Assembly (NCBI RefSeq): GCF_020509005.1
Contig: NC_063012.1
Location: forward strand, 5,952,001-6,016,000
DNA from: Fulvia fulva
Taxonomy: Eukaryota; Ascomycota; Dothideomycetes; Mycosphaerellales; Mycosphaerellaceae
Length of the DNA: 64,000 bases
Direction: 5' to 3'
The notes below the pieces were generated by a model. The model saw only the letters and a program-made list of their open reading frames with translations. It was not told the origin of the DNA and did not search any database. This document shows positions 2,816 through 44,420 of the stretch, piece by piece. Each line of letters opens with the position of its first letter. Position 1 is the first letter of the stretch. The translations under genes were made by a program, and so were the position numbers.

Positions 2816-3698
2816 TGCTGGAGCGTGGGGGCTGCCGAGCAAGGTGCGATGAAGAGGTGCAGATTAATGTGAAGTCGAAAGTGATACCCGTGTGTACATA
2901 TCCAGAACGATCAACGACTCTCTTGTACCAGCTGTGTCATAATGTTGTATGCGAACGAGCACATTTATTAACAAAATGTGCTGTTGGCGGTTGTGAACCT
3001 CCAAAGGTAAGCGTAGCGGAGTGGAGCTCTCTACCAACCCTTCTAGACTGCAAAGTAGCGTGCGATCCACGCTACCGCTACCCGACGTACAGTGCTTATT
3101 ATACGACGACATAGGCGTTAGCGACGAGTATATGTTTGCGAGTTCGCCAACAGGCACAGTGCGGTAGGTCACGTGACCCTAAAACTTGAAAGTTGACCAA
3201 ATCAGAGCGGGCGCCAAGGCTAGTTCAGGGCTGGTATAGAGCTTCACTCCCTCGCTGACGCCTCACCTACGTACTCGCAAGCTCGTACTCCGGTGTGGCT
3301 AGCGCTCGGTCGCTACGCTTAATAATTGCCGTTAGCGTAACGTGGTGGGGCCAAAGTGTTTTCCATACTAAGGCTCGGCTCGTCACAAGACATTGCAAGA
3401 CAGTCAAGCAACGCACCTCACACTTTCCACATCCACTCTACGCCGGATTCTCCCTCGACAACTGCAGATCCACTAGCAGCACAGTATCCTGCTCCCCACG
3501 CAGCACCGCAGGCATCGCTCAATCGCGACTCACCGCCCGGGGCACCAAACGACAGTCTGCCTCGAACACCAACCGTCTCCGTCACCATGTGCACATAGGG
3601 CCCCTTCCAGCTTGCAGCGTGGTGTACCACGCTACCATGTTCACTCCAGCATCACATAGCAGCAGCATCACGATTACGCACACGAGACGGTAGTTAAC
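2816..3698. other. Intergenic region and LOS1 promoter
   Basis: The 880 bp between the membrane-protein gene and LOS1 contain no reading frame with protein-like composition. The last 250 bp are C-rich on the plus strand, as expected for a fungal promoter and leader. No recognisable regulatory site is claimed. Confidence 0.45.
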
Positions 3699-6600
3699 AT
3701 GGATTCACAAGTTGAGAGCGCCATCGAGCTTGCGTTCAATCCCACCACCGACCAAAGCGTCAAGGCGCAGGCATACGACTTCCTCGCCCAGTTGAGGGAG
3801 GCTCCAGATGCCTGGCATGTATGCCTGACACTGTTCATACGGCGTCCCACGCCCTCGGAGGTGGTGCGGCTAGTGTGCCTAGAGATAGTCAACACAGCTG
3901 TGCAAACACGACGGCTGGATCAGGCAGGACTCAACGATGTGCGGCACAGTCTGATGGAATACATCCAGGCTCGGTACACCCCAGGCTCCACAGAAATCGA
4001 CACACCGCCCATTCAGAACAAGCTCACCCAGACCATCACCTATCTGTTCACATTTCTGTATGCTTCGGACTGGACCACCTTCTTTGACGATTTCATTGGT
4101 CTGGCAAGCGCCGAGGGTGATTCAGGTGGTGTCGCAACGGTCATGTTCCTGCGTATCCTCAGCTCCATCCACGATGAGATTGCGGATGTGATGATTCCAA
4201 GGACACCAGACGAGCAGAAACGAAGCACGGAGCTGAAAGATTTGGTGCGAGTAAGAGACGTCAACAAGATCGCAGCAACATGGCAAGAGCTGTTATCGCG
4301 GTGGAGACAGTTAGACCTTGGACTGGTGGAAATGTGTCTGAGAACAATCGCAAAGTGGGTCAGCTGGATCGATATTTGGCTGGTGATCAATGAGAGGATC
4401 CAGACTGCTCTGTTGGAAATCGCAGGCCAACAGGGTACATTCAACGCAGACAGTAGAGAGGCAAGAGCAAGAGATGCTGCCATCGACACCTTCACCGAGA
4501 CTGTAGCCAAGAAGATGCCGCCCAACGACAAAGTCGAGCTGATCGGCTATCTGAATCTTGGCGGTATTGTCGGACAACTGGTATCGAGCACAGTGCTCAC
4601 CGATCTTCGAACGACACCAGACTACGACACCGACCTTGCCGAGACAGTTGCGAAGCTCGTCAACAATGTGATCTTTGACATTGTCAAGGTCCTGGATACC
4701 GACAATGTGGACGAACAAACGAGGTCGAAGGCCGATCAGCAGTTGCAAAACTTCATCCCTCATCTTCTGCGGTTCTTTGCGGATGAGTATGATGAGATAT
4801 GCTCTGCGGTAATCCCCTCTCTGACAGACCTGCTCGCCATGTTCCGCAAAGTGGTTCAAAAGTCAAAATCGGTCCTTCCGAGTCATTATGCCAGCTTGCT
4901 TCCACCCATTCTAGACGCCATCATTGCAAAGATGAAGTACGACGAGACTGCGTCCTGGGGCGATGATGACGACCAAACCGACGAGGCCGAATTCGAGGAG
5001 TTGAGGAGGCGCCTGCATGTCTTGCAGCAAACAGTAGCAGCTGTGGACGAAACACTCTACATCGATACGTTAACCAGAGTTGTAGCCAGTACACTCGGCA
5101 AACTCTCTTCGAACGATGCCGACCTGAACTGGCGAGATCTCAACCTTGCATTACTGGAGATTCACCATTTCGGCGAGCTTGCCATCAAAACCGGCGGTAT
5201 ATATCACAAGAGCAAGCCCACCTCCGAGGCCTCGACTAGACTAGTGGAGATGATGTTCACGCTTGTGGACTCGGGCCTGGCTTCATACCCCCATCCTGCG
5301 GTACAGCTGCAGTACATGGAGATATGCGTTCGTTACGTTCAATACTTCGAGCAGAATGGCAGTAGTATACCCAAAGTACTGGAAAGCTTCGTCTCGCTGG
5401 TGCACAGCAGCCACAAGAAAGTACGCCTGCGGTCCTGGTACCTGTTCCAACGCTTCGTTCGACATCTGCGAGCGCAACTCGGCGAATTCGCTCAGACTGT
5501 GGTTCAAGCCATTGCCGATTTGCTTCCGATCAAGGCAGAGCTGCCAGCTGATAGAGACGACGATGATGCTTCTTCTGAGGATAATACACAGTCCTCAGAT
5601 GCCACGTTCCAGAGTCAACAGTATCTTTTCGAGGCTACTGGACTCGTAGCATCTACTCAGAACGTACCGGCCGCAACCAAGGTCACCATCGCGAAGTCTG
5701 TCATTGGCCCTCTTGTCAGCGATCTCAATAATCACCTGTCGGCTGCTGGCAACGGAGACGAGAGAGCGGTACTGCAAACGCACCACATCGTCACTGCTCT
5801 TGGCTCCCTTGCCAACGGCTTTTCGGACTGGACACCAGGTATTTCTTCCGGCGGACCGCCAGCTGCTGAGGTCTCACAAGAATTCGTGGCTGCAAGTGAC
5901 AGTATCCTAACGGCCCTAGAAAGCTTGAAGCAACACTCCGAGCTGCGAGCTGCTTCTCGACATGCATTCTCACGTCTACTTGGCGTCCTCGGGGCTTACG
6001 TTCTGCCACAACTGCCTCGTTGGATCGAAGGACTACTCTCTTCCGCATCATCAAATGACGAGATGGCATTGTTCCTCCGAACTTTAGGTCAAGTGGTGTA
6101 TGGCTTCAAGACCGAGATTTACGATATTCTTGATCAGCTGCTGTCGCCACTGTTCCAGCGAGTTTTCAGCGGCCTATCGCAAGATATCACAGGAACTGAT
6201 GACGAGATTCAGTTGCGTGAAGTCAGGCGCGAATACCTCAACTTTGTTCTGGTCATTTTGAACAACGACCTAGGCTCCGTGCTGGTGAGTCCAGCGAACC
6301 AAGGCATGTTCGACACGTTCATCGCCTCAATCACCCGCTTCGCTTGCGATCCCTCTGACCCACAGAGTGCACGCCTGGCTTTCTCAATCTTGACCAAGTT
6401 GACGACCACATGGGGAGGTCCCGACATATCCCTCGATGCCGCCCCACAACCTGCGCTCCCAGGCTTTGACAGTTTCATCCTGTCCCAGTTTGCGCCGCTA
6501 CCCTGGTCCTTGATATCTGCTACCAACTTCAATGCAGGAGACGCTCAGATGCGAACTTTGCTGCAAGAAGCTGCAAATCTGCAATGGACGATATTGCGTA

Positions 6601-6755
6601 AGATCGGTATCGCGTACCAAAACCAGCTCGGCAACGAGCTTAGGACTCTTGGTGCCGGAGATGATGGTGTGCAGTCTTACTTCACCAGTATCGGCGGTGA
6701 TATGGTGAACTTCAGAAAATTCATGGTGTCATTCCTGTCTGGTGCGAAGCGGTAG
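3699..6755 (+). CDS. LOS1: tRNA exportin (exportin-T, Los1/Xpot family)
   Basis: A single uninterrupted ORF of 1,018 codons, the usual length for fungal Los1. Exportin-T is a karyopherin-beta that binds mature tRNA with Ran-GTP in the nucleus and carries it through the pore, releasing it when GTP is hydrolysed. The N-terminus (MDSQVESAIELAFNPTTDQ, then KAQAYDFLAQLREAPDAW) is the helical importin-beta-like start of the family. The segment around residues 175-205 (LKDLVRVRDVNKIAATWQEL) is characteristic of exportin-T, and the rest is a chain of amphipathic helix pairs (HEAT repeats). Two acidic linkers are visible, around residue 420 (DDDDQTDEAEFEEL) and residue 620 (DRDDDDASSEDNTQ). The C-terminus ends FRKFMVSFLSGAKR, consistent with a complete protein. 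The ATG at 3699 follows GTTAAC, and no upstream in-frame extension is needed. It lacks introns, unlike its neighbours. Confidence 0.93.
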   Translation: MDSQVESAIELAFNPTTDQSVKAQAYDFLAQLREAPDAWHVCLTLFIRRPTPSEVVRLVCLEIVNTAVQTRRLDQAGLNDVRHSLMEYIQARYTPGSTEIDTPPIQNKLTQTITYLFTFLYASDWTTFFDDFIGLASAEGDSGGVATVMFLRILSSIHDEIADVMIPRTPDEQKRSTELKDLVRVRDVNKIAATWQELLSRWRQLDLGLVEMCLRTIAKWVSWIDIWLVINERIQTALLEIAGQQGTFNADSREARARDAAIDTFTETVAKKMPPNDKVELIGYLNLGGIVGQLVSSTVLTDLRTTPDYDTDLAETVAKLVNNVIFDIVKVLDTDNVDEQTRSKADQQLQNFIPHLLRFFADEYDEICSAVIPSLTDLLAMFRKVVQKSKSVLPSHYASLLPPILDAIIAKMKYDETASWGDDDDQTDEAEFEELRRRLHVLQQTVAAVDETLYIDTLTRVVASTLGKLSSNDADLNWRDLNLALLEIHHFGELAIKTGGIYHKSKPTSEASTRLVEMMFTLVDSGLASYPHPAVQLQYMEICVRYVQYFEQNGSSIPKVLESFVSLVHSSHKKVRLRSWYLFQRFVRHLRAQLGEFAQTVVQAIADLLPIKAELPADRDDDDASSEDNTQSSDATFQSQQYLFEATGLVASTQNVPAATKVTIAKSVIGPLVSDLNNHLSAAGNGDERAVLQTHHIVTALGSLANGFSDWTPGISSGGPPAAEVSQEFVAASDSILTALESLKQHSELRAASRHAFSRLLGVLGAYVLPQLPRWIEGLLSSASSNDEMALFLRTLGQVVYGFKTEIYDILDQLLSPLFQRVFSGLSQDITGTDDEIQLREVRREYLNFVLVILNNDLGSVLVSPANQGMFDTFIASITRFACDPSDPQSARLAFSILTKLTTTWGGPDISLDAAPQPALPGFDSFILSQFAPLPWSLISATNFNAGDAQMRTLLQEAANLQWTILRKIGIAYQNQLGNELRTLGAGDDGVQSYFTSIGGDMVNFRKFMVSFLSGAKR

Positions 6756-19049: not shown

Positions 19050-20517
19050 CCCCTTCGTTCTCGTAGTATTCTTGTAGCTTCTACTAATAGTTACGTAGGT
19101 TCTTCTTATGTTCCTAGGTATTTTCCGAATCGTCGTATCCTTTCTACCTAACGAGGTATCGCCGACCTTGTCTATCTAGTATTCTCTCGACTTCGAACTC
19201 GTTTTCTTCTTCGGCCTAGTAGTAAAATGTTTCTTAGCACGGTGTCCGGGGGTCCGCTAGTTCTAGTATAGATATATAGAATACTAGGTAGATCTTAGCG
19301 TCCTTTAGTAGTCGTAGTCGGTAGTTAACTAGTCCTCGAGGTTCTTTAACGAGAAATGGTCCGACTTTTATATAGTCTAGCTTTTTGGTCTTCCTTCGCG
19401 TCCTAAGGTTTTTTGTAAGAAGGTAGACCTTATCCCCCCTCTATAGCTAAGGTGCTATTTATCGTTTCTTACGGGATACCGAGAGCTTGTTTTGATTACT
19501 CCCGATTGTTCTTATAATGTTTTTATGTATCTTCTTTAGGCTCTGTGTAGTAGCAATAGCTTTGTCGGCCTGTAGGTACGTCCCTTCTTCGCTAAATAGG
19601 GTAGGGTGCCTCCCGTAGTTTGCGTAGAATAGTAACTCCCTTATAGTCTCGGATTAGTAATTGTTGAGTACAATTTGCGCTATAGGTAGGAGTAATACCT
19701 AATTGTCCTACGCATAGTTGATGTAGTGTCGGAGGTATTATTCTAGCGTTTGGTTCGCTCTCTCCGTCTGTCTATCTATCTATAGGTAGTATACGGTCGA
19801 TAACTTATACTTAATTCCGATCGTAGCAACTAGTGTCTTCTAGTAGTTTGATAGGAATAGCTTGTCTCTGTCTATAATAAAGACCTTTAGAAAGCCGTAG
19901 TATCGTACTAGTTAGTCTAGTACGAGGTATCCGAGCTATTCTACTCTATATGCCTCGGAGGTAGGGATGAAGTGTGTATATTTAGTAAGCCGGTCGACTA
20001 TTACTAGTATTATGTCGTATCGTTGTGACGTGACCTTGTCCTATGACGTTAGTAGCTTAGTAATAAAGTCTATCGTGACTTCCTCCTAAGGCTATATTAG
20101 TGGCTCCCTAAACTATATCTCTCTATACTTAGCGTATCGAGAAGCCTTATTAGTCTAGTAGTCTATACATCTCTTAATGTATTATAGTACCTTCTATCGC
20201 ATCTATAGGAATACGAAGCTTCGTTATATAAGGTCGATTATCTTGTTTGCTCTAGGGTGTCCGTATATAGGATCGTCGTAATGTTGTCGTATATATTCCC
20301 GCTCGCGATTAGGTAGTACCTAATATTTACCGTATACTATTAGGAATTGTTCTTCCGTGTCCTAAAGGACTTACACTATATTGTTGAACTCTAGTGTGTT
20401 AGCGCTAAGACTTCCGTCGGGGTTGGTCTTTAATACCTTCTACTATACTAGTTCCTTTCCTTCTATATAGTCGCTTCTTCGGCTTAGTACGTCGGCCCTA
20501 CCGTTATCTTTTCCGGG
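19050..20517 (-). pseudogene. Gypsy-1 integrase and C-terminal chromodomain (RIP-inactivated)
   Basis: Read on the minus strand, the frame contains DRQTERANQTLE (end of the integrase core, near 19,775), a DKVYLLTKNLRT segment typical of the integrase C-terminal domain, then VERILDRQGRRYLVR-x-KGYDDSENT-x-E (about 19,120-19,210). The last is a chromodomain, which in chromoviruses guides integration to marked chromatin. Stops replace Trp and Gln codons. The upstream part of integrase is continued beyond the LINE-A insertion. Confidence 0.85.
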
Positions 20518-20531
20518 TATATAGCGGATTT
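20518..20531. repeat. Left target-site duplication of LINE-A
   Basis: TATATAGCGGATTT, repeated exactly at 23,847-23,860 after the tail of the element. The 14 bp direct repeat defines the insertion and shows that both ends are intact. Confidence 0.9.
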
Positions 20532-21608
20532 GGTCGACGACGAGAATCACCTGTACGTGGTGTCGGCTACGAACCTCTCGTCTAGCTACGAGAGAGCCAA
20601 GTATTCTCACGCTGGAGCGTCGTGGGCGCGACGGGCGCGTAGCGTAGGCGAAGCCGCGGCGAACAGAGGACTACCAGCAAAACGGGTATGAAAACCATCC
20701 GACGAGCGTGTACTCGTCTCGGGAGCGAGTCCCTCTTCTTTCTACGTGTAAGAAGGGCGCGGAACCGTGGCCTATACGCTCGACAGGACACCTCTGGTAT
20801 GAGTGCAGAATTTTCACCTCCGGAGACCGCAAACCGAGCGGGCTAAGCGACGAACATTGGACGAGCGGACTACAGAACAACAACTGAGCGGACTATGCAA
20901 CGGCGTCGAGCGGACTACGAAACAATCTGGTGTTTGCCAGCGGGCAATGCGGTGGGTAGGTGGACACGCGACGAAGCCTGTAAGGGCCTGTTGAACACCC
21001 GGTATGGGAACGAGGGTTTTGCCTGAGGCACTGCCTGTCCCGCTACACAACGCACCTAGTCTGACATGGTAGATTGCGACGAGGAAAAGACGATAGCCTA
21101 AGCAAGGAAAAGACGGCTGTTAGGACGGGGAAAAGACGTACAATGCAAGTGGATTAGTTCTGTGATCGGGGAGGATCGAGGGCAGGGTGATAACGAACTT
21201 CATATTGGTTAGTAGGTGGAAACGCAAGGAGTACGCTGCCCGGCGTGGTGTGTGCCCCGAGCAAACCTGCGAGGCATGGACGGCCGCTTTCTAGAGATAG
21301 GCTGCGGTAACGCGAAGGGCGTCAAAACCTGGGGCGTGGTGTACACTGGCAGCGACGGCTGACACTGTCTGTACAGCCCGAGAGGACGGATGCGCATGTC
21401 GGTCAATAGAGAGCACTAAAGGGCTTAGGCCTATGGAGGTGGATATTGGCTTAAGGAGCAAACAGGGAGGGAGGGCGTAGAGGGAAGCTTTTGCTCCGGG
21501 CTAACCTCTCGAAACGAGGCTACACGGTGGTGCTAGATGAGTGGGAAAGCGCGGTTAAGACTTGTCACCTTATCTCGTAGCTAGCTTGCTAAATACGATT
21601 CCTTCCTT
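20532..21608 (+). other. Non-coding 5' module of LINE-A (WEIRD-like)
   Basis: About 1,077 bp with no plausible ORF. A RIP-mutated second copy (39,321-40,378, ~1,058 bp) is fused to a different LINE body, and both copies end at the same CCTTCCTT. The sequence is rich in short hairpins: CTCTCGTCTAGCTACGAGAG (20,576-20,595), ACTCGTCTCGGGAGCGAGT (20,712-20,730) and CTTCTTTCTACGTGTAAGAAG (20,734-20,754 region). It contains three copies of a GGAAAAGACG motif (about 21,082-21,140) and three related GAGCGGACTA units (about 20,865-20,920). The properties suggest a structured RNA. Whether it is a LINE 5' UTR or a separate transcript captured by template jumping cannot be settled here. Confidence 0.75.
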
Positions 21609-21617
21609 GCCCTGGAC

Positions 21618-23648
21618 ATGGATTGGGCGGTTAGCCCTAACACAGTAACAGGAGTCATAAGTAAGCTAAAGGGACGAAAAGCCCCAGGCCCAGACAGGAT
21701 ACCAAACGTACTGCTAAAAGAGTGTAGAGAAGAGATCGCGCCGAGCCTTGCAAACCTATTTACCGCGTGCCTACGGCTAGGGTATCACCCGAAGCCGTAC
21801 AGAGAGTCTATGACAGTAGTGCTACGCAAGCCACAGAAGGAAGACTATACTCAGCCCAAGTCGTACAGACCAATAGCACTTCTAAATACGATAGGGAAGG
21901 TCCTAGAAAAGATAGTAGCCCAGAGACTTACGCAGCTTGCCGAGGACAACCACGTACTCCCAGCAACACAGATGGGGGGAAGAAGCCAGCGATCGACACT
22001 AACAGCAATGGAGCTAATTACGGAGCAAATCCAGACCCTCTGGCACTACGGCAGGAACCGAGCGGCGTCCTTACTATCCCTCGACATCGCAGGGGCCTTC
22101 GACAACGTCTCACACCAAAGGCTAATACATATCCTACAGCAGAAAGGCATCCCCCAGTGGGCAACGTCGTTCGTCTTCTCCTTTCTCCAGGAACGGACGA
22201 CATACCTAGTCCTAGGAAGGTACACGTCCGACCCGGTGAAGGCAGAGACTGGAATACCTCAGGGATCTACTCTCTCCCCTATCCTGTTTCTAATATTTAT
22301 GTCGGATCTAATCCCCCTACTCACCTCTCCGCAAACCTCAGCATCGGGGTTCGTAGACGATACAAACATCCTAGCCTGGTCAGACTCGACAGAAGAGAAC
22401 TGTCGCCTCCTTGAAGATAGGCACAAGAAATGCGAGGAGTGGGCAAAGAAGCATGGTGCCCGGTTCGCCCCTGAAAAGTACCAACTTATACACTTCAGTA
22501 AAGCGAGAACACACCATAATATGAAGGCGGCGGTAAGAATCCAAGGCTACGAGACCAAGCCATCAGCGGAGCTACGAGTAGTAGGGATCTGGCTCGACCC
22601 GAAGCTAAGCTGGAATGTACAGATTAAGAAAGCCCAGAGTCGAGCGCAAGTCAATGAAGCCTCGATAAAGAGGCTTACGGCATCTACATGGGGAGCAACA
22701 TTCGACAAGGCAAGAGTAATGTATAAGGCGATCGTCAGACCAGCTATGTTGTACGGGGCACAGATTTGGGGAACAGGAGGCGCAGGCAAGCCGATCCCGA
22801 AACGGATAGAGCAACCCCTAAACAGGACACAGGCAGGCAACCTACGTAGGGTACTAGGCGCATACAAGACAACGTCAACAAGCACGGTAGAAATGGAGAC
22901 AGGAATACCACCAATCGGCCAGTACATCCGGGGAATGAGAATTCAATACGCGGCAAAGACGACAGGTTACCTAGCACAAACCACGATCCAGGAGGCAAAG
23001 AATAAGATAGAAAGCCGCTACCGGAGAGGGGCAGGATATAGGACAAGCCAAAAAGAGGATGACCTTACGACCTTTACGGCCGTACAGACAAGCACCGAAT
23101 GGCTAGCACGAAAGGAGGAGGAGCGTAGGACTCGCCAGGCCGGCGGGAGCAAGGCTAAGACCCAAAACCTAGCGGAACAGATAGCGAGCTGCCTATGGGA
23201 GCAGGACTGGAAAAGGAAGCCCCCTAAGACAACAGGCCCGATAGCGCTCCGAGCCTTCCAGAGACACAATTACCAGCTATATAGGGACCTGACAAGGGCC
23301 GAAGCAAGCATAGCGATCCAAATCAGGTCCGAACACATTGGATTAAGGGCCTACCTGTTCAGAAGACGCGCACTAGACATCTATAGCCCAGCCTGCCAGT
23401 GTGGCTACCCATCGCAAAACCCAGAACATATGCTACTACGATGCCCGCAGTGGGCGAGAGGCAGGGGAAATTGGAGGCACCAAGCGGGAAGGAGAGACTA
23501 CAAGTCAATTATTAGGGACAAAGGCAACATTCGCCGAATCTCTCGGTGGATACTACAGCAGGGATACCTCCAGCAGTTTAGCCTCGCGAGCGAGACGGAG
23601 GAGTGGATAGACAAGAGGCGGAAGCGAGGGGGGTTGCAGATAGGGTAG
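21618..23648 (+). CDS. Intact LINE reverse transcriptase ORF (676 aa), no endonuclease
   Basis: An uninterrupted frame of 676 codons. The start of the RT domain is at residues 13-30 (SKLKGRKAPGPDRIPN). KSYRPIALLNTIGKVLEKI follows, then LLSLDIAGAFDNVSHQRL with the first catalytic Asp, GIPQGSTLSPILF, and SGFVDDTNILAW with the FVDD catalytic pair. The C-terminal region has a Cys/His knuckle (CQCGYPSQNPEHMLLRC), typical of the end of fungal LINE ORF2. The ORF begins just before the RT domain, so the endonuclease normally upstream is missing. The frame is open a few codons upstream of this ATG, into the junction. Codons are intact at all motifs, in contrast to every other transposon gene here. The enzyme could in principle be active in RNA copying, but would need endonuclease from elsewhere. 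Confidence 0.92.
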   Translation: MDWAVSPNTVTGVISKLKGRKAPGPDRIPNVLLKECREEIAPSLANLFTACLRLGYHPKPYRESMTVVLRKPQKEDYTQPKSYRPIALLNTIGKVLEKIVAQRLTQLAEDNHVLPATQMGGRSQRSTLTAMELITEQIQTLWHYGRNRAASLLSLDIAGAFDNVSHQRLIHILQQKGIPQWATSFVFSFLQERTTYLVLGRYTSDPVKAETGIPQGSTLSPILFLIFMSDLIPLLTSPQTSASGFVDDTNILAWSDSTEENCRLLEDRHKKCEEWAKKHGARFAPEKYQLIHFSKARTHHNMKAAVRIQGYETKPSAELRVVGIWLDPKLSWNVQIKKAQSRAQVNEASIKRLTASTWGATFDKARVMYKAIVRPAMLYGAQIWGTGGAGKPIPKRIEQPLNRTQAGNLRRVLGAYKTTSTSTVEMETGIPPIGQYIRGMRIQYAAKTTGYLAQTTIQEAKNKIESRYRRGAGYRTSQKEDDLTTFTAVQTSTEWLARKEEERRTRQAGGSKAKTQNLAEQIASCLWEQDWKRKPPKTTGPIALRAFQRHNYQLYRDLTRAEASIAIQIRSEHIGLRAYLFRRRALDIYSPACQCGYPSQNPEHMLLRCPQWARGRGNWRHQAGRRDYKSIIRDKGNIRRISRWILQQGYLQQFSLASETEEWIDKRRKRGGLQIG

Positions 23649-23846
23649 TCATCAGGGCAGGCCCATGACACTAGCGTACCCCTAACAAGGGAAATTTAAG
23701 ACGACAACGAGGAGGAAAAGACAGGCGGGAAGGAGGAGGGGTTTTCACCAACACGGTTTCCCCTCTATATATACAAAAACAAGATAGCATAGCTGCATAG
23801 GCCAAAGGGCACTACAACAGCTTAATGAAATATCTATCTATCTATC
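23649..23846 (+). other. LINE-A 3' UTR and (ATCT)n tail
   Basis: GC-rich 3' UTR with a GGCGGGAAGGAGGAGGGG segment and GGTTTCCCCTCTATATATA, ending in several ATCT units. The LINE-B 3' end (33,660-33,783) has the same architecture and partial identity, so the two LINEs probably share the 3' RNA recognised by the reverse transcriptase. Confidence 0.75.
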
Positions 23847-23860
23847 TATATAGCGGATTT

Positions 23861-25720
23861 CGAACTTGTACTAACCGAGTAGTTCCGATTAGCGGGACTG
23901 TCTTCTTATTAGCATCTTAGTCGTAGTGAAGTAAGTGAGATTCTTGTGATCAGAAAGAATCGTTAGCTTAGGTGCTCCTTCCGTATATACTCTCTAGTAC
24001 TATATTGTAGCGACAATAGCGAGAAGTTCCTTATTATAGATGTCGTAGTTTTGTTCCGCGGGTGTCATTTTTCTTAAATAGTAGGCCACTAGGTGTCGTC
24101 TCCTATCATACTCTTATATAAGGTATACTCCTATAGCTATATCCGATACGTCTGTCTCGATTTGGACTTCTTTCGTACCGTTAAATAGTCGAAGCGTTAG
24201 TACTAAGGCGTATTGCTCTTTTAGTAGCTCGAATGCCTATTGTTCTTTGTTGCCCTAGGTCCACCTAGTATCCTTCCTTATTAGGGCTGTTATAGCTACT
24301 ACGGTCTTAGAGTAGTCCTTAATAAACTTGCGATTATAGTTTGCTAGTCCTAGGAACGATTATACGTCCTTAACGTTTGCCGGCGTCGGCCATTCCCTAA
24401 TAGATTATGTCTTTGCTAGATCGATCTAGATTCCTATTATACTAATAATGAATCCGAGGAACTTGACTTGTTTCTTATAGAACTCGTATTTCTCTAGTAC
24501 CGTCTTGAACCCTAACTTCGTAAGTCGTTCGAAAACGTCTTAGACTTAGGCGATGTGTTTCTGAAGTGATCCTTTCGTATAGACCAAGATGTTATCTATA
24601 TAAGCGATAACATAGACGTCGAGAAGATCTCGTAGCGTCTCGTTAACGAGGTCCTAGCAGGATGCTAGTATGTTAGTCAATCCTATAGGTATAACTAAGA
24701 ATTCGTAGAGTCTATATCTTGTCCTAAATACGGTTTTCTATTCTTCTCCTTCCGCTATACGGATAGTATAGAATGCGTCTCGTAGGTCGATCTTTATATA
24801 CTAGTCTAATCCGGTAAGTCTGTCTTATACTTCTTCGATGTTCGGTAGTAGGTATCGGTTCTTAATAGTAATCTCGTTCAACTTTCGGTAATCTTAGACG
24901 AGTCGTAGTTTCCCGTTCGGTTTCGGAACAAATATATATAGAGCTCCCGCGCTCGAGGTAGATCGTCGTATCTATCCTTTAGCGAGTTTCTCCTTTAGCT
25001 ATTATCGTAGGGTTTCTAGCTCTTTCTCGGACATTTAGTATAGGGGTCCCTATAGAGGCTCTTTCCCTAGCTAAATGTTTATCTTATAGTCCTATAGGTA
25101 GTGTTTAGGAAGTGCGTCTCTGCCTTTTTCCTCTTCAAAGAGCCTCTTCTACTTAAGGTACTCCTTAGGAATACGCGGTTCTAATATGCCGGCATCCTTC
25201 GATAGTACGTTACTTCTATCATTTCTAGTGACTTTGTGATCCGGCGGCCCTACGCTAGTATCTGTCCCGGTCGAAGGTGGTTCTTAGTTCCTTCTATTCG
25301 GCGTAAGCTCGAATACGTTAAGCTGTTTCCTTACCTTATCTACCGCCTCTCGCTATCGACGCGTAGGTTTAATACCGATAACGTAGTTATATTACTTAAA
25401 TATAAGTACTCCTCTTCTCTAGTCGATGACTAGGTTATGCTTTCTTAACTAAGGCATACCTAGTACTATATCATAACTAGCTATATTAGTAATATCTAAG
25501 GTAATATTCTCGTAGTGCTATTAGATAGCTAGTGGTAATAGTGTCGTCTCCTATTCTACGCTAGGTAACGATAACCCGTCTACCGTAATTAACTCGTAAC
25601 CCTATTTCTTCTTTAGGGTAGCTAACCCGTTTCTTCTTATAAAAGACTCGGAGATGAAATTCCCCGCTACTCTAGAGTCGATCATAACACTAGTTCTATA
25701 TCCGTTAACGATTACTTATG
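23861..25720 (-). pseudogene. Gypsy-1 protease, reverse transcriptase and RNase H (RIP-inactivated)
   Basis: On the minus strand, reverse transcriptase is recognisable as PKPNGKLRLV-x-DYRKLNEITIKNRY (about 24,870-24,935), IDLRDAFYTIRIAEGEE (about 24,750-24,805) and VIAYIDNILVYTKG (about 24,575-24,615), where the usual YxDD is now YIDN. The RNase H domain follows downstream toward 23,900. The aspartic protease remnant is near 25,450-25,720. Trp and Gln codons are now stops throughout. The order protease-RT-RNase H-integrase is that of Ty3/Gypsy. Confidence 0.87.
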
Positions 25721-38746: not shown

Positions 38747-38931
38747 TATTACCGTACCGGCTTATATTTACTTAAACCCGCGGGTACGTACCTAGACCTC
38801 GCGCCCGCTAACTAGTCTAACTAGCGGCTTAGCGCCCGTATATAACTCTCGCGCCCTCCGCGCCTCCCTTAGATAGAACATCTATTCGACTTATACCTTA
38901 CCCGACTACGTACTTATACCTACTTATAATA
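38747..38931 (+). repeat. Gypsy-2 3' LTR
   Basis: 185 bp, pairing with 30,643-30,827. RIP has changed its terminal TG to TA and CA to TA. Confidence 0.9.
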
Positions 38932-39298
38932 GGAGAGGAGAGACTATAAGTTAATTATTAGGGACAAAGACAATATTTACTAAATCTCTCGGTAGATATT
39001 ATAGTAGTAATACCTCTAGTAGTTTAGCCTAGCTAGTAAGACGGAGGAGTAGATAGATAAGAGGCGGAAGTTAGAGGGGTTATAGATAGGGTAGTTATTA
39101 GGGTAGGCCTATAACACTAGCGTACCCTTAATAAGGGAAATCTAAGACGAGAACGAGGGGGAAAAGATAGGCGGGAAGGAGGAGGGGTTTTTACTAATAC
39201 GGTTTCCCCTCTATATATACAAAAATAAGATAGTATAGCTATATAGGCTAAAGGGCACTATAATAGCTTAATAAAATATCTATCTATCTATATAACTA
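38932..39298 (+). mobile_element. LINE-A 3' fragment, RIP-mutated
   Basis: It matches LINE-A from about 23,490 through its 3' UTR and (ATCT)n tail, with CpA-to-TpA changes at most sites. It abuts the Gypsy-2 3' LTR without a visible target duplication, so its 5' end may have been lost through the Gypsy-2 insertion or recombination. Confidence 0.85.
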
Positions 39299-39320: not shown

Positions 39321-40930
39321 TAGTCGACGACGAGACTTACCTATACGTAGTATTAGCTACGAACCTCTCATCTTACTATAAGAGAGCTAAGTATTCTTAC
39401 GCTAGAGCGTCGTAGGCCAAAGCCGCGGCGAATAGAGGACTACTAGTAAAACGGGTATAAAAACTATCCGACGAGCGTGTACTCGTATCGGGAGCGAGTC
39501 CCTCTTCTTTCTACGTATAAGAAGGGCGCGGAACCGTAGCCTATATACTCGATAGGACACCTCTAGTATAAGTATAGAATTTTTACCTCCGGAGACCGTA
39601 AACCGAGCGGGCTAAGCGACGAATATTAGACGAGCGGACTATAGATTAATAACTAAGCGGACTATACGACGGCGTCGAGCGGACTACAAAACAATCTAGT
39701 ATTTACTAGCGGGTAATATAGAGGGTAGGTAGACGCGCGACGAAGCCTATAAGGGCCTATTAAGTACCCGGTATAGGAACGAGGGTTTTACCTAAGGTAC
39801 TACCTATCCCGCTATATAACGTACCTAGTCTAATATAGTAGATTACGACGAGAAAAAGACGATAGCCTAAGCAAGGAAAAGACGGCTATTAGGACGGGGA
39901 AAAGACGTATAATATAAGTAGATTAGTTCTATAATCGGGGAGGATCGAGGGTAGGGTAATAAGGAACTTTATATTAGTTAGTAGGTAGAAACGTAAGGAG
40001 TACGCTACCCGGCGTAGTGTATACCCCGAGCAAACCTACGAGGTATAGATAGCCGCTTTCTAGAGATAGGCTACGGTAACGCGAAGGGCGTCAAAACCTA
40101 GGGCGTAGTATATACTAGTAGCGACGGCTAATACTATCTATATAGCCCGAGAGGATTGATACGTATATCGGTTAATAGAGAGCACTAAAGGGCTTAGGCC
40201 TATAGAGGTAGATATTAGCTTAAGGAGTAAATAGGGAGGGAGGGCGTAGAGGGAAGCTTTTGCTCCGGGCTAACCTCTCGAAACGAGGCTATACGGTAGT
40301 ACTAGATAAGTAGGAAAGCGCGGTTAAGACTTATTACCTTATCTCGTAGCTAGCTTACTAAATACAATTCCTTCCTTATTAGTCTAGACATATCGGGAGC
40401 CTTCGACTACGTGTTATACCCGCGGCTACTCTATATCCTAAGGTCGAAAGGACTCCCTAAGTAGCTTGTCAACTTCGTACGGTCCTACCTCTAAAGCCGT
40501 AGCACGTCGATCCTAGTCGGCTAGTATAGAAGCCTATTTTAAGTAGTCTATACTAAAATCCCGTAAGGCTTAACGCTAGTACCTATTCTGTTTCTCTTCT
40601 TTATAGCGACGCTACTCCTAGCCCTAGAATCCTAGAACACCGCTACGAGCGGCTTCGTAGACGACATAAACATCCTAGCGTAGTCTTCCTCGACTAAGAA
40701 GAACTATAGGCTACTAGAAGAGAAGCACAAGATCTACGAGGACTAGGCTAGGAGGTACGGGGCTCGGTTTACCCTAGAAAAGTATAATCTAATATACTTT
40801 ACGCGCCGGCTACGGTTCTATAATATATAAGCTTCTATCTAGATATAGGGGTATACGACTAACCTAGTAAATTAGCTTAGGATCCTCGGACTATAGGTAG
40901 ACCCGGCGCTACGGTAGAGGAAGTACGTAC
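39321..40930 (+). mobile_element. Chimeric LINE: LINE-A 5' module fused to LINE-B reverse transcriptase
   Basis: 39,321-40,378 is a RIP-mutated copy of the LINE-A 5' module, with a ~20 bp internal deletion. After CCTTCCTT it continues as LINE-B reverse transcriptase (LDISGAFDYVLYPRLLYILR at about 40,387; GFVDDINIL at about 40,650), not LINE-A. LINE-B has CTTCCTT at the equivalent point (63,874-63,880), giving seven bases of microhomology. The body is interrupted at 40,930 by the Mutator-like element and resumes at 51,457-51,521 (GGCAATATTACGGAAAGC). It is then cut by the tail of a reverse LINE-B. Confidence 0.87.
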
Positions 40931-42149: not shown

Positions 42150-44420
42150 AGTAGAATACGGTAAGGCGCTAAGTACGTAGATACCTAGGGAAGTCAACGC
42201 CGCGAAGACCTTAGCAATAGCGACAGGTCGCGATAATAACTATACTATAACGAGTTAGTACGACTTATAGACCTAGAATAGTATACTACTACCGGTAAAG
42301 CCCTTAGGTAAGTATATATCTCTTTTCCTAGATCTCTTATCTTTTCTATAGCGCTAGACTTAAGATAACGACCGGCGTGTTACGATTAATACCGGCGTCG
42401 CTCTTTAGTAGGAGTTAGATATAGTATAGGAGAAGGTACTCGATAGGGAATAGGAAGGCGCTATTAACTTTATAGAACTCTACGAGCTAAAGGAGTACTA
42501 GGAGAAGGGTAGCGACGATATACTACCTATTTACTACTCCCTCGACAAAGCCGAACATATCGCCGCTAGCGATTTCTAGAACGTCGACGCGAACGACCTC
42601 GCCGAGTTAGTCCGAGACTATCCTAAGACTTTATATAACTTTATCCTACGAGGATTTAATACCGCGTAGACCGCTACCGAGCAAGTCGACGTCTTATAAC
42701 GTATAAACGCCCTCTAGAACGACTAGTACCGTAACCTCTACGCCGAATACGACCGTATCTATTAGATACTTAGAACCGAGAAGTCCGCCTTATAGAAGAT
42801 AGTATAGGATCTTAAGAACGTACTAGACCTAGCTAAGATAAAGGAGGTCTAGGACAAGTATAAGTAAGCTAATAATCTATATAAACAATTTTACGATCTT
42901 AGCGAAAAGGAGAAGAAGAAGGTATAAGAGACTAAGAAGAAGGCATAAGATACTAAGAGCATAAACTAGGCGTTATAGAAGGAGATTAATGACTTAAAGA
43001 CTCGACTCTAAGCTATAGAGGACAACACTACTAACGGTAATAGGCGTCGAGGCCGTGGTCCGTTACGCTCGCGCTCTTACCCGCGAGAGACCTCCCCCGA
43101 GAAGCTTTAGCGTATATATTATAAAGCCGCTACCGGGGGCGGTAGGGGTAGTAGTAGAGATAACGATAATAATGACGGCCTAGGCCGTAGCGATAAGGAC
43201 AAGGATCGAGGCCGCGATAATCGCCGCCGTAACTAGCGCTAAGAGACGGTACGTACTAGAGGAGGACGTACTAATCGTATATAGACACCGCTAGTAGACC
43301 TTGCCGAGCGTCTTATTAATATCGACCGTACCTTAGAACGTAGTATAGAGATCGGTAAGGGAGTACTAGATCCTAAGAAGTTTAAGAACGATACCGACCT
43401 ATCGTTCGATAGTTAGTATATAAGTATCCTACTAAAGCTTATAGTAGCGACCTTCCGTACTAAGTAGGATACCCTCCGCTTCCTATATAGATAGACTAAT
43501 AGTAAAGTCTAGACTACTATTAAGCTACGCATCCCTATCCTAGGACATTAGTTATATAACGAGTTTAGTACCGGCGAGGAGCTACTAGACTAGATAACTC
43601 GATAGTACGGTACCCGGAACGAAGCTATAAAGGCTATAGTCGATATTATAACCTATAAGTAGTAGTAGAAGGAATCCTTTGTCGTATTCTTCGCACGTTA
43701 CTCGAAGTTACGTACCTAGATAGACTAGGGGGATAATACCGAGCTAATACTTTTCCGTAACCGCCTAAACCGTAAGTACTTTAGTAGAAGGAATCCTTTG
43801 TCGCATTCTTCGTACGTTACTCGAAGTTACGTACCTAGATAGACTAGGGGGATAACACCGAGCTAATACTTTTCCGTAACCGCCTAAACCGTAAGTACTT
43901 TATTAAGACATTTGGCGACCGAGAGGTTAACCGTTACCTAAATAGGATATAGGATATTATTAAGGAATATACCGAGTTAGACGAGACCTTCTACGAGACC
44001 GAGTAGCTATACCCTTAGTAGGACAATAACCGCCCTTATAGTAGCGGCGGAGGAGGTAACTAGAACCTAGGCCCTACTAGTAACGTAATAACTACTATAG
44101 CTACCGTAGCTAGCGCGACCGGTACGATCGTATAGCGCCTACTATAGTACTTAGGCATTAAGAAGAAGGAAGACTTACTAGTACACCTTTAGAATCTACT
44201 ACCGCTTAACCGCGAGGGTCGCGAAGATCTAAAGAAGTAGGGTAAGTACTTCCGTTACCGTACCGGACTATATATTACTAGTAACCCCGAGTACGAGATA
44301 TACGGCTACGACGGCGACTACCGCCTACCTCGACTACGTAACGTAACTCCGAACTTGAGCGCCCTCGCTACCGAGTAGGGAAATGCCGGGGCCACTGCCT
44401 AAGTGTAGTAGATAGTAGTT
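42150..44420 (+). pseudogene. Gypsy-3 gag region (RIP-inactivated, with internal duplication)
   Basis: Plus-strand frames give charged helical segments (for example DDLAELVRDYPKTLYNFILR-like text near 42,590-42,650 and coiled coil around 42,800-43,020), a basic Arg/Gly/Asp-rich stretch (near 43,030-43,250), then a capsid-like region to about 44,400. A 119 bp tandem duplication (43,664-43,901) shifts the frame, since 119 is not divisible by three. Stops are frequent. Identified as gag from position and composition. Confidence 0.6.
43664..43901. repeat. 119 bp tandem duplication inside Gypsy-3
   Basis: Two adjacent copies (43,664-43,782; 43,783-43,901) beginning AGTAGAAGGAATCCTTTGTC, differing by a few C/T and G/A changes. 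It is absent as a duplication elsewhere in the window. Confidence 0.92.

Follow-up and report, generated by a model that had tools for sequence, protein, structure and literature searches.

The window (the whole 64,000-nucleotide stretch analyzed) contains two copies of a non-coding module, one in front of a LINE-A and one, mutated by RIP, in front of a LINE-B, as the initial annotation had described. The first copy lies at 20532-21609 on the forward strand, was delimited by full-copy search, 3′ tag and junction reading, and reads GG...CCTTCCTTG; we regard it as a putative DNA copy of a WEIRD-like acceptor RNA. It is followed on the same strand by a 5′-truncated LINE-A (21610-23846) containing the reverse transcriptase (RT) part of ORF2, the 3′ UTR and a (TATC)n tail. 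An identical 14-mer, TATATAGCGGATTT, is found at both ends of the module+LINE-A unit (20518-20531 on the left and 23847-23860 on the right, forward strand), so that this element (L001) is a single insertion with a 14-bp target duplication. Its LINE-A part is 99.9% identical to full-length LINE-A from base 2876 of the latter onward and belongs to an open frame at 21585-23648, with LINE-A starting at 21610. The second, older module copy (39322-40378, forward strand), identified by sequence comparison, also lacks ~20 bp near its 5′ end. It is followed by the start of a 5′-truncated LINE-B in the RT motif A region (40379-40929, forward strand), and just upstream of this chimera lies an older LINE-A copy, a module-less 3′ end (38927-39294, forward strand). 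Elsewhere in the window, a long open frame of 1,031 codons (3660-6755) presumably encodes a protein resembling exportin-T/Los1, as judged by eye, and two tandem 119-bp units at 43663-43900 are 97% alike.

The module has no long frame, and its longest stop-to-stop frames are 79 aa on the forward strand and 101 aa on the reverse strand. It is 1,077 nt long plus a terminal G, and the length of 1,077 nt is found in all 50 fetched modules, a sample picked for intact ends. The initial annotation had placed a common endpoint of the two copies at 21608; the two copies do have the same 3′ end, and the endpoint itself is refined to the terminal G at 21609, the module ending in CCTTCCTTG, with some RIP-mutated copies having A in place of G. 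The CTTCCTT pointed out earlier at the LINE-B join is real in LINE-B relatives, which carry it at the corresponding place (GCTTCCTTACTTAGCC), but the 7-nt match at the second copy is no general rule. From the letters, this join, a few bases from a site common to five sampled LINE-B chimeras, can be read either as a RIP-changed module G->A followed by LINE-B from C^TTAG or as a join within the shared 7-nt CTTCCTT. Near the module 3′ end, GGGAGGGAGGGCGTAGAGGG (window 21465-21484, module bases 934-953) fits a G-quadruplex pattern. A ribozyme or known structured RNA was considered and rejected, as Rfam covariance models gave no match in 20400-23950 up to E=5. A 3′-terminal helix, CAGGGAGGGAGG/CCUUCCUUG, appeared in a partial fold and was lost in the full fold, and the stability of the module is no greater than that of shuffles (z +1.6 for the whole module and +0.4 for its 3′ 178 nt).

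We searched the whole genome of Cladosporium fulvum Race 5 (67,169,167 bases, 14 contigs) for the module, as the initial annotation had proposed, and the phenomenon is larger than first seen. A 27-nt tag of the module 3′ end occurs 543 times with at most one mismatch, and the reversed control 0 times, which excludes chance. In the available part of its description, 39.2% of this genome is RIP-affected and LINE Tad1 makes up 16.3% of it (PMC9453070). Full module copies at ~100% were represented by 40 scored among 656 candidates. The 5′-terminal module tag has 339 matches, and internal tags at module bases 32, 188 and 546 have 399, 544 and 519; two RIP-sensitive dinucleotides are contained in the 5′-terminal tag and one in the 3′ tag. 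The last two internal tags are about as common as the 3′ tag, so there are few signs of 5′-truncated modules down to base 188 and no surplus of internal tags over the 3′ end. The module ends seen number 110 (91 junctions, then 16 and 3 more), about a fifth of the 543.

The 91 junctions come from 89 elements and comprise 30 loci, 60 further exact-tag copies taken in list order from contigs 1-3, and one inner junction, that of L021; L077 likewise represents the inner junction of element L078. Among them, 88 enter LINEs of at least four families (86 assigned by LINE protein match, L048 and L057 by overlap), and three enter the module itself. The junction clusters are LINE-A (38), LINE-B (28), LINE-D (7), LINE-C (6), small clusters (9) and module (3), where L032 and L071 are tied into the LINE-B cluster solely via the L014 flank and L032 is LINE-D-like by protein. 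After CCTTCCTT, the next base is G or A in all 91 junctions; since 60 of these were chosen by a tag ending in CCTTCC, only TTG/A is free of selection. Tripartite module-module-LINE copies are L021, L045 and L077/L078. Two copies are irregular, and later rearrangement or internal entry is possible for both: in L147 (C1:5225600-5226900), a full module precedes an inner module piece (166 to ~402) that gives way to LINE-B, the 3′ end of the inner copy being absent, and the module of L129 is interrupted near base 609. Translated LINE-D stretches of 122-134 aa (from L033, L037, L042, L049, L056, L067, L073 and L087) are 98.5-100% identical to a reverse transcriptase of Stemphylium lycopersici (P0002, one 5,143-base contig), which may reflect contamination of the latter assembly or a horizontal transfer, both species being tomato pathogens.

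In the sampled copies, module and LINE have the same orientation, with the module on the 5′ side, as would be expected if the module were an ordinary LINE 5′ UTR and the chimeras its internal deletions, the alternative named in the initial annotation. That annotation had also named the finding that would speak for it, a full-length LINE-A in which the module runs into ORF1. Three full-length LINE-A copies (L091-L093, 5.1 kb) have their own 5′ UTR without a module match, followed by frames of 470 codons (ORF1) and 1,118 codons (ORF2, with endonuclease and RT domains), L092 having a stop in ORF2; L094, the fourth LINE-A fetched, is rearranged. An unbroken run of the module into ORF1 is therefore absent from full-length LINE-A, the LINE compared, and for LINE-A the 5′ UTR explanation is refuted. 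Nor does it account for junctions of the module with four or more LINE families, at 52 distinct placed sites, and with itself, or for the lack of a dominant junction (the most-used one accounts for at most 6 of 91), and we consider it extremely unlikely overall. A constant module endpoint would also arise if LINEs used the 3′ end of module repeats already in the genome as a specific insertion site. However, the target duplication encloses module and LINE as a unit in all four elements with one found (14, 14, 16 and 13 bp in L001, L008, L014 and L018, respectively; the other 26 of the 30 loci have no target duplication within 1,500 bases downstream of the module), and the insertion sites share TATATA, not module sequence. 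Site-specific insertion is thus barely credible.

The breaks in the LINEs have a strict signature. Of the 91 junctions, 79 were assigned a position on LINE-A, the module or a longer chimera, which gave the 52 distinct sites; the others (L009, L033, L051, L053, L054, L057, L067, L068, L071, L076, L079 and L087) were left out because they have no parent with at least 88% identity. The first uncopied base (Y0) is a pyrimidine at 52 of 52 sites, the first copied base (+1) is C at 47, the base preceding Y0 (R-1) is a purine at 47, and the +2 base is a pyrimidine at 46. Together, RYC is found at 44 of 52 sites, compared with 6.2% of LINE-A positions, and at 18 of 20 LINE-A sites (P=3e-20). A further 20 junctions were tried and 18 of them placed, with Y0 in 18, C in 16 and RYC in 14; ten of these are new sites (Y0 10/10, C 9/10, RYC 8/10), and eight repeat earlier sites or each other's. 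RYC also occurs in L021 and L078, where the module is the donor; in L045, with the module likewise as donor, the +1 base is G. Three divergent LINEs break repeatedly within the region of RT motif A (LDI.GAFD), at LINE-A 3342 and its counterparts in LINE-B and LINE-D, and a second recurrent site lies just ahead of the FVDD motif (LINE-A 3601). Microhomology as the sole rule was rejected: the module G replaces the pyrimidine at all 52 sites and hence is not shared. Matching over 1-2 nt (C, CC) with a module end ...GC(C) is possible, but no extra C is found at the five sites lacking C at +1. Trans-splicing was rejected as well, as the placed breaks follow no AG rule. A jump onto the 3′ end of a discrete RNA, as the initial annotation had suggested, would fit such a spread of entry sites over several LINE families.

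Truncated LINEs without the module allow the same breaks to be viewed apart from it. The LINE-A copies that match a 35-nt internal tag exactly (67 on contigs 1-3, not all young) consist of 36 module chimeras, 22 full-length copies by 5′ tag, eight copies truncated without module and one other (L158), which reaches LINE-A base 137 at the edge of the stretch. The module is carried by 36 of the 44 truncated LINE-A copies with an intact internal tag, five of the 36 being without the exact 3′ tag (L136, L152, L156, L157 and C2:3121235, the last resting on position only). Another set of 29 copies from contigs 1-4, which have the 3′ LINE tag and no exact internal tag, contains 22 that run through with a mutated internal tag, two rearranged ones, five truncated without module and none with module. 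LINE-A truncations in the last ~1.5 kb are module-less in these five of five cases, although the breaks of two sampled chimeras, L021b and L139, fall in this part. The signature is present only in part among the 13 module-less truncations, with a CC start in six (7.6% expected, P=2e-4), Y^C in four and Y0 in nine (Fisher test P=0.001). The break preference is perhaps partly a property of the LINE reverse transcriptase that is sharper in module jumps.

A strict break signature with a fixed partner nucleotide is also what would be expected if the RNAs were joined before reverse transcription, that is, if LINE RNA were cleaved at RY^C and attached to the 3′ G of the module RNA, by ligation or by transesterification, so that the product would serve as an ordinary LINE template. 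Because retrotransposition would require a LINE 3′ end, the LINE-only partners are compatible with this explanation, and the entry in L147, which is not via the module 3′ end, slightly weakens the jump explanation. Against RNA-level joining, the Rfam search of the element returned nothing, and the CC start shared by 6 of 13 module-less truncations points to the reverse transcriptase. We consider joining at the RNA level improbable.

For INDEPENDENCE and sources, 50 intact-ended modules were compared. The majority lineage is S0; S1 (569G 733G 895C) has seven copies, all with LINE-A as partner, and S2 (109C 111A 314G 569G) has eight copies with LINE-A, LINE-B, LINE-C and one small cluster. The changes at 733 in S1 and 111 in S2 are non-RIP-type in either direction. 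Each of the three lineages includes members without private changes, so all three are young. Modules of S0, S1 and S2 are found at LINE-A site 3601, of S0 and S1 at site 2874, and of S0 and S2 at sites 2257 and 2840, which shows that a given nucleotide was hit repeatedly. L021 combines two lineages, module(S0)-module(S1, from base 168)-LINE-A, either by an encounter of two RNAs in a single cell or because the RNA of an S1 chimera served as template. The coexisting lineages and L021 argue for several module sources. We note that L085 and L090 have a rare module haplotype and a junction in common, the junction being present in four of the seven copies of their lineage, so that some chimeras may be whole-unit copies, against full independence. 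At positions 109, 314, 569 and 895, TpA in the commonest lineage stands against CpA or TpG in others, a pattern expected from RIP acting on a DNA copy, and this speaks weakly against an extrachromosomal RNA source.

These lineages bear on whether the module RNA comes from one single-copy host gene, captured repeatedly, such as the housekeeping RNA proposed for WEIRD. The module ends are constant, as such a gene would predict, and in the available part of PMC2104539 WEIRD is reported to be highly expressed (in that of PMC3978060, WEIRD transcripts were found only under stress). With about a fifth of the copies read, a solo source gene may have escaped. However, three lineages with members free of private changes and one two-lineage chimera imply at least two RNA sources at one time. 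Solo or source copies were searched among 17 copies with the exact 5′ tag and no listed exact 3′ tag, and the module tail was still present in 16, the exception being L129; of the 16, 15 were placed on LINE relatives, and L135, unplaced, begins like L057. A module followed by plain host sequence was not recognized among the copies read, about a fifth of the 543. We regard a single host gene as rather unlikely.

We therefore favor MINE-type template jumping, abundant, using multiple LINEs and probably multiple sources, as the best explanation, and consider it highly probable. The module would be the DNA copy of a discrete ~1,078-nt non-coding RNA with the 3′ end ...CCUUCCUUG. Target-primed reverse transcription would begin on the LINE 3′ end, with its (TATC)n tail, at a TATATA target, and the reverse transcriptase would stop before completing the LINE RNA, typically once it has copied a C behind purine-pyrimidine (R-Y^C). 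The stopped enzyme would then jump to the 3′ end of the module RNA and copy through to its 5′ end, and the chimera would integrate, producing a target duplication of 13-16 bp. The constant G would follow from an overhang C lying opposite the terminal G of the module. In this way the module would cap aborted LINE copies, and several module sources, most simply earlier chimeras, would be active together.

SINEs are non-autonomous, multi-lineage RNAs mobilized by LINE machinery, and target-primed reverse transcription starts on the SINE RNA. The module likewise appears to be non-autonomous, multi-lineage and LINE-mobilized, but it has no LINE-A 3′ end (no BLAST match between the module and full-length LINE-A, the only LINE compared) and would be reached second. 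The closer parallel is MINE, reportedly also treated in Fudal 2005, a study cited by Gogvadze 2007. In the available part of the latter (PMC2104539), MINE elements are WEIRD-MGL chimeras of Magnaporthe grisea/oryzae with a full-length ~1.1 kb non-coding 5′ part (WEIRD, 1113 nt) and a LINE 3′ part that is 5′-truncated at many sites, in the same orientation and with short target duplications; tripartite cases, the repeated use of a few sites and the lack of a reported solo copy are further likenesses. The break motif there ends in YC (GCC, GTC and GCT in Table 3, vs RYC here). The three bases before the switch are GCC, GTC, GCT or AGC, of which GCC and GTC fit RYC, GCT is RYY and AGC does not fit, and the authors found no microhomology; the accessions they give for MINE transcripts are EF585235-EF585237. 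Differences are the 31 WEIRD-MGL copies there vs 543 tagged module ends here, one LINE and a SINE there vs at least four LINE families and the module itself here, and the several module lineages that coexist here. The parallel with MINE drawn in the initial annotation is thus apt in architecture: a complete non-coding 5′ part of ~1.1 kb, variable LINE truncation, short target duplications and a break motif compatible with GCC/GYC are all found, and on this architecture we call the module a MINE-like element.

Mammalian U6/L1 and U6atac/L1 chimeras (21 U6/U6atac copies associated with repeats in the available part of one survey, PMC4476161) similarly have a non-coding RNA 5′ of a truncated LINE inside one target duplication and involve several LINE clades, but U6 is a conserved host snRNA with known genes. 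The Bombyx R2 reverse transcriptase jumps in vitro to an RNA 3′ end, best with a complementary cDNA 3′ overhang of 1 or at most 2 nt, and offers a biochemical model, though in vitro, from another LINE clade and without an in vivo acceptor RNA (PMC8857657, available part). LINE-A has endonuclease and RT domains, and the LINEs of this genome are annotated as Tad1 in the available parts of PMC10823647 and PMC9453070. The word 'chimeric' is absent from the main text of the former, and titles and abstract beginnings, mostly outside the subscription literature, gave no WEIRD/MINE-like or chimeric LINEs in fungi other than Magnaporthe. Relative to the literature covered, the scale, the several LINE partners in one genome, the coexisting lineages, the capped fraction of truncated LINE-A copies and the refined break rule are new.

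A tentative reading, which we hold to be somewhat short of probable, is that the module is a self-propagating parasite of LINEs of a kind not described before, non-autonomous and never priming, whose RNA 3′ end is a landing site for stalled reverse transcriptases. If so, the module would be transcribed from its own promoter within each new chimera and could thereby spread 5′ of any LINE, and WEIRD, for which no source gene was found, would belong to the same class. In the papers cited, LINE template jumping in vivo has so far been inferred from sets of a few dozen chimeras. Hundreds of candidate events with one acceptor end and several donor LINEs make the donor and acceptor rules readable statistically: the acceptor end is exact, the donor break (R-Y^C) is strict, and identical nucleotides were reused independently. 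These observations suggest that WEIRD-like RNAs extend beyond Magnaporthe, that more than one source can supply such an RNA, and that it may act as a parasite riding on failed retrotransposition.
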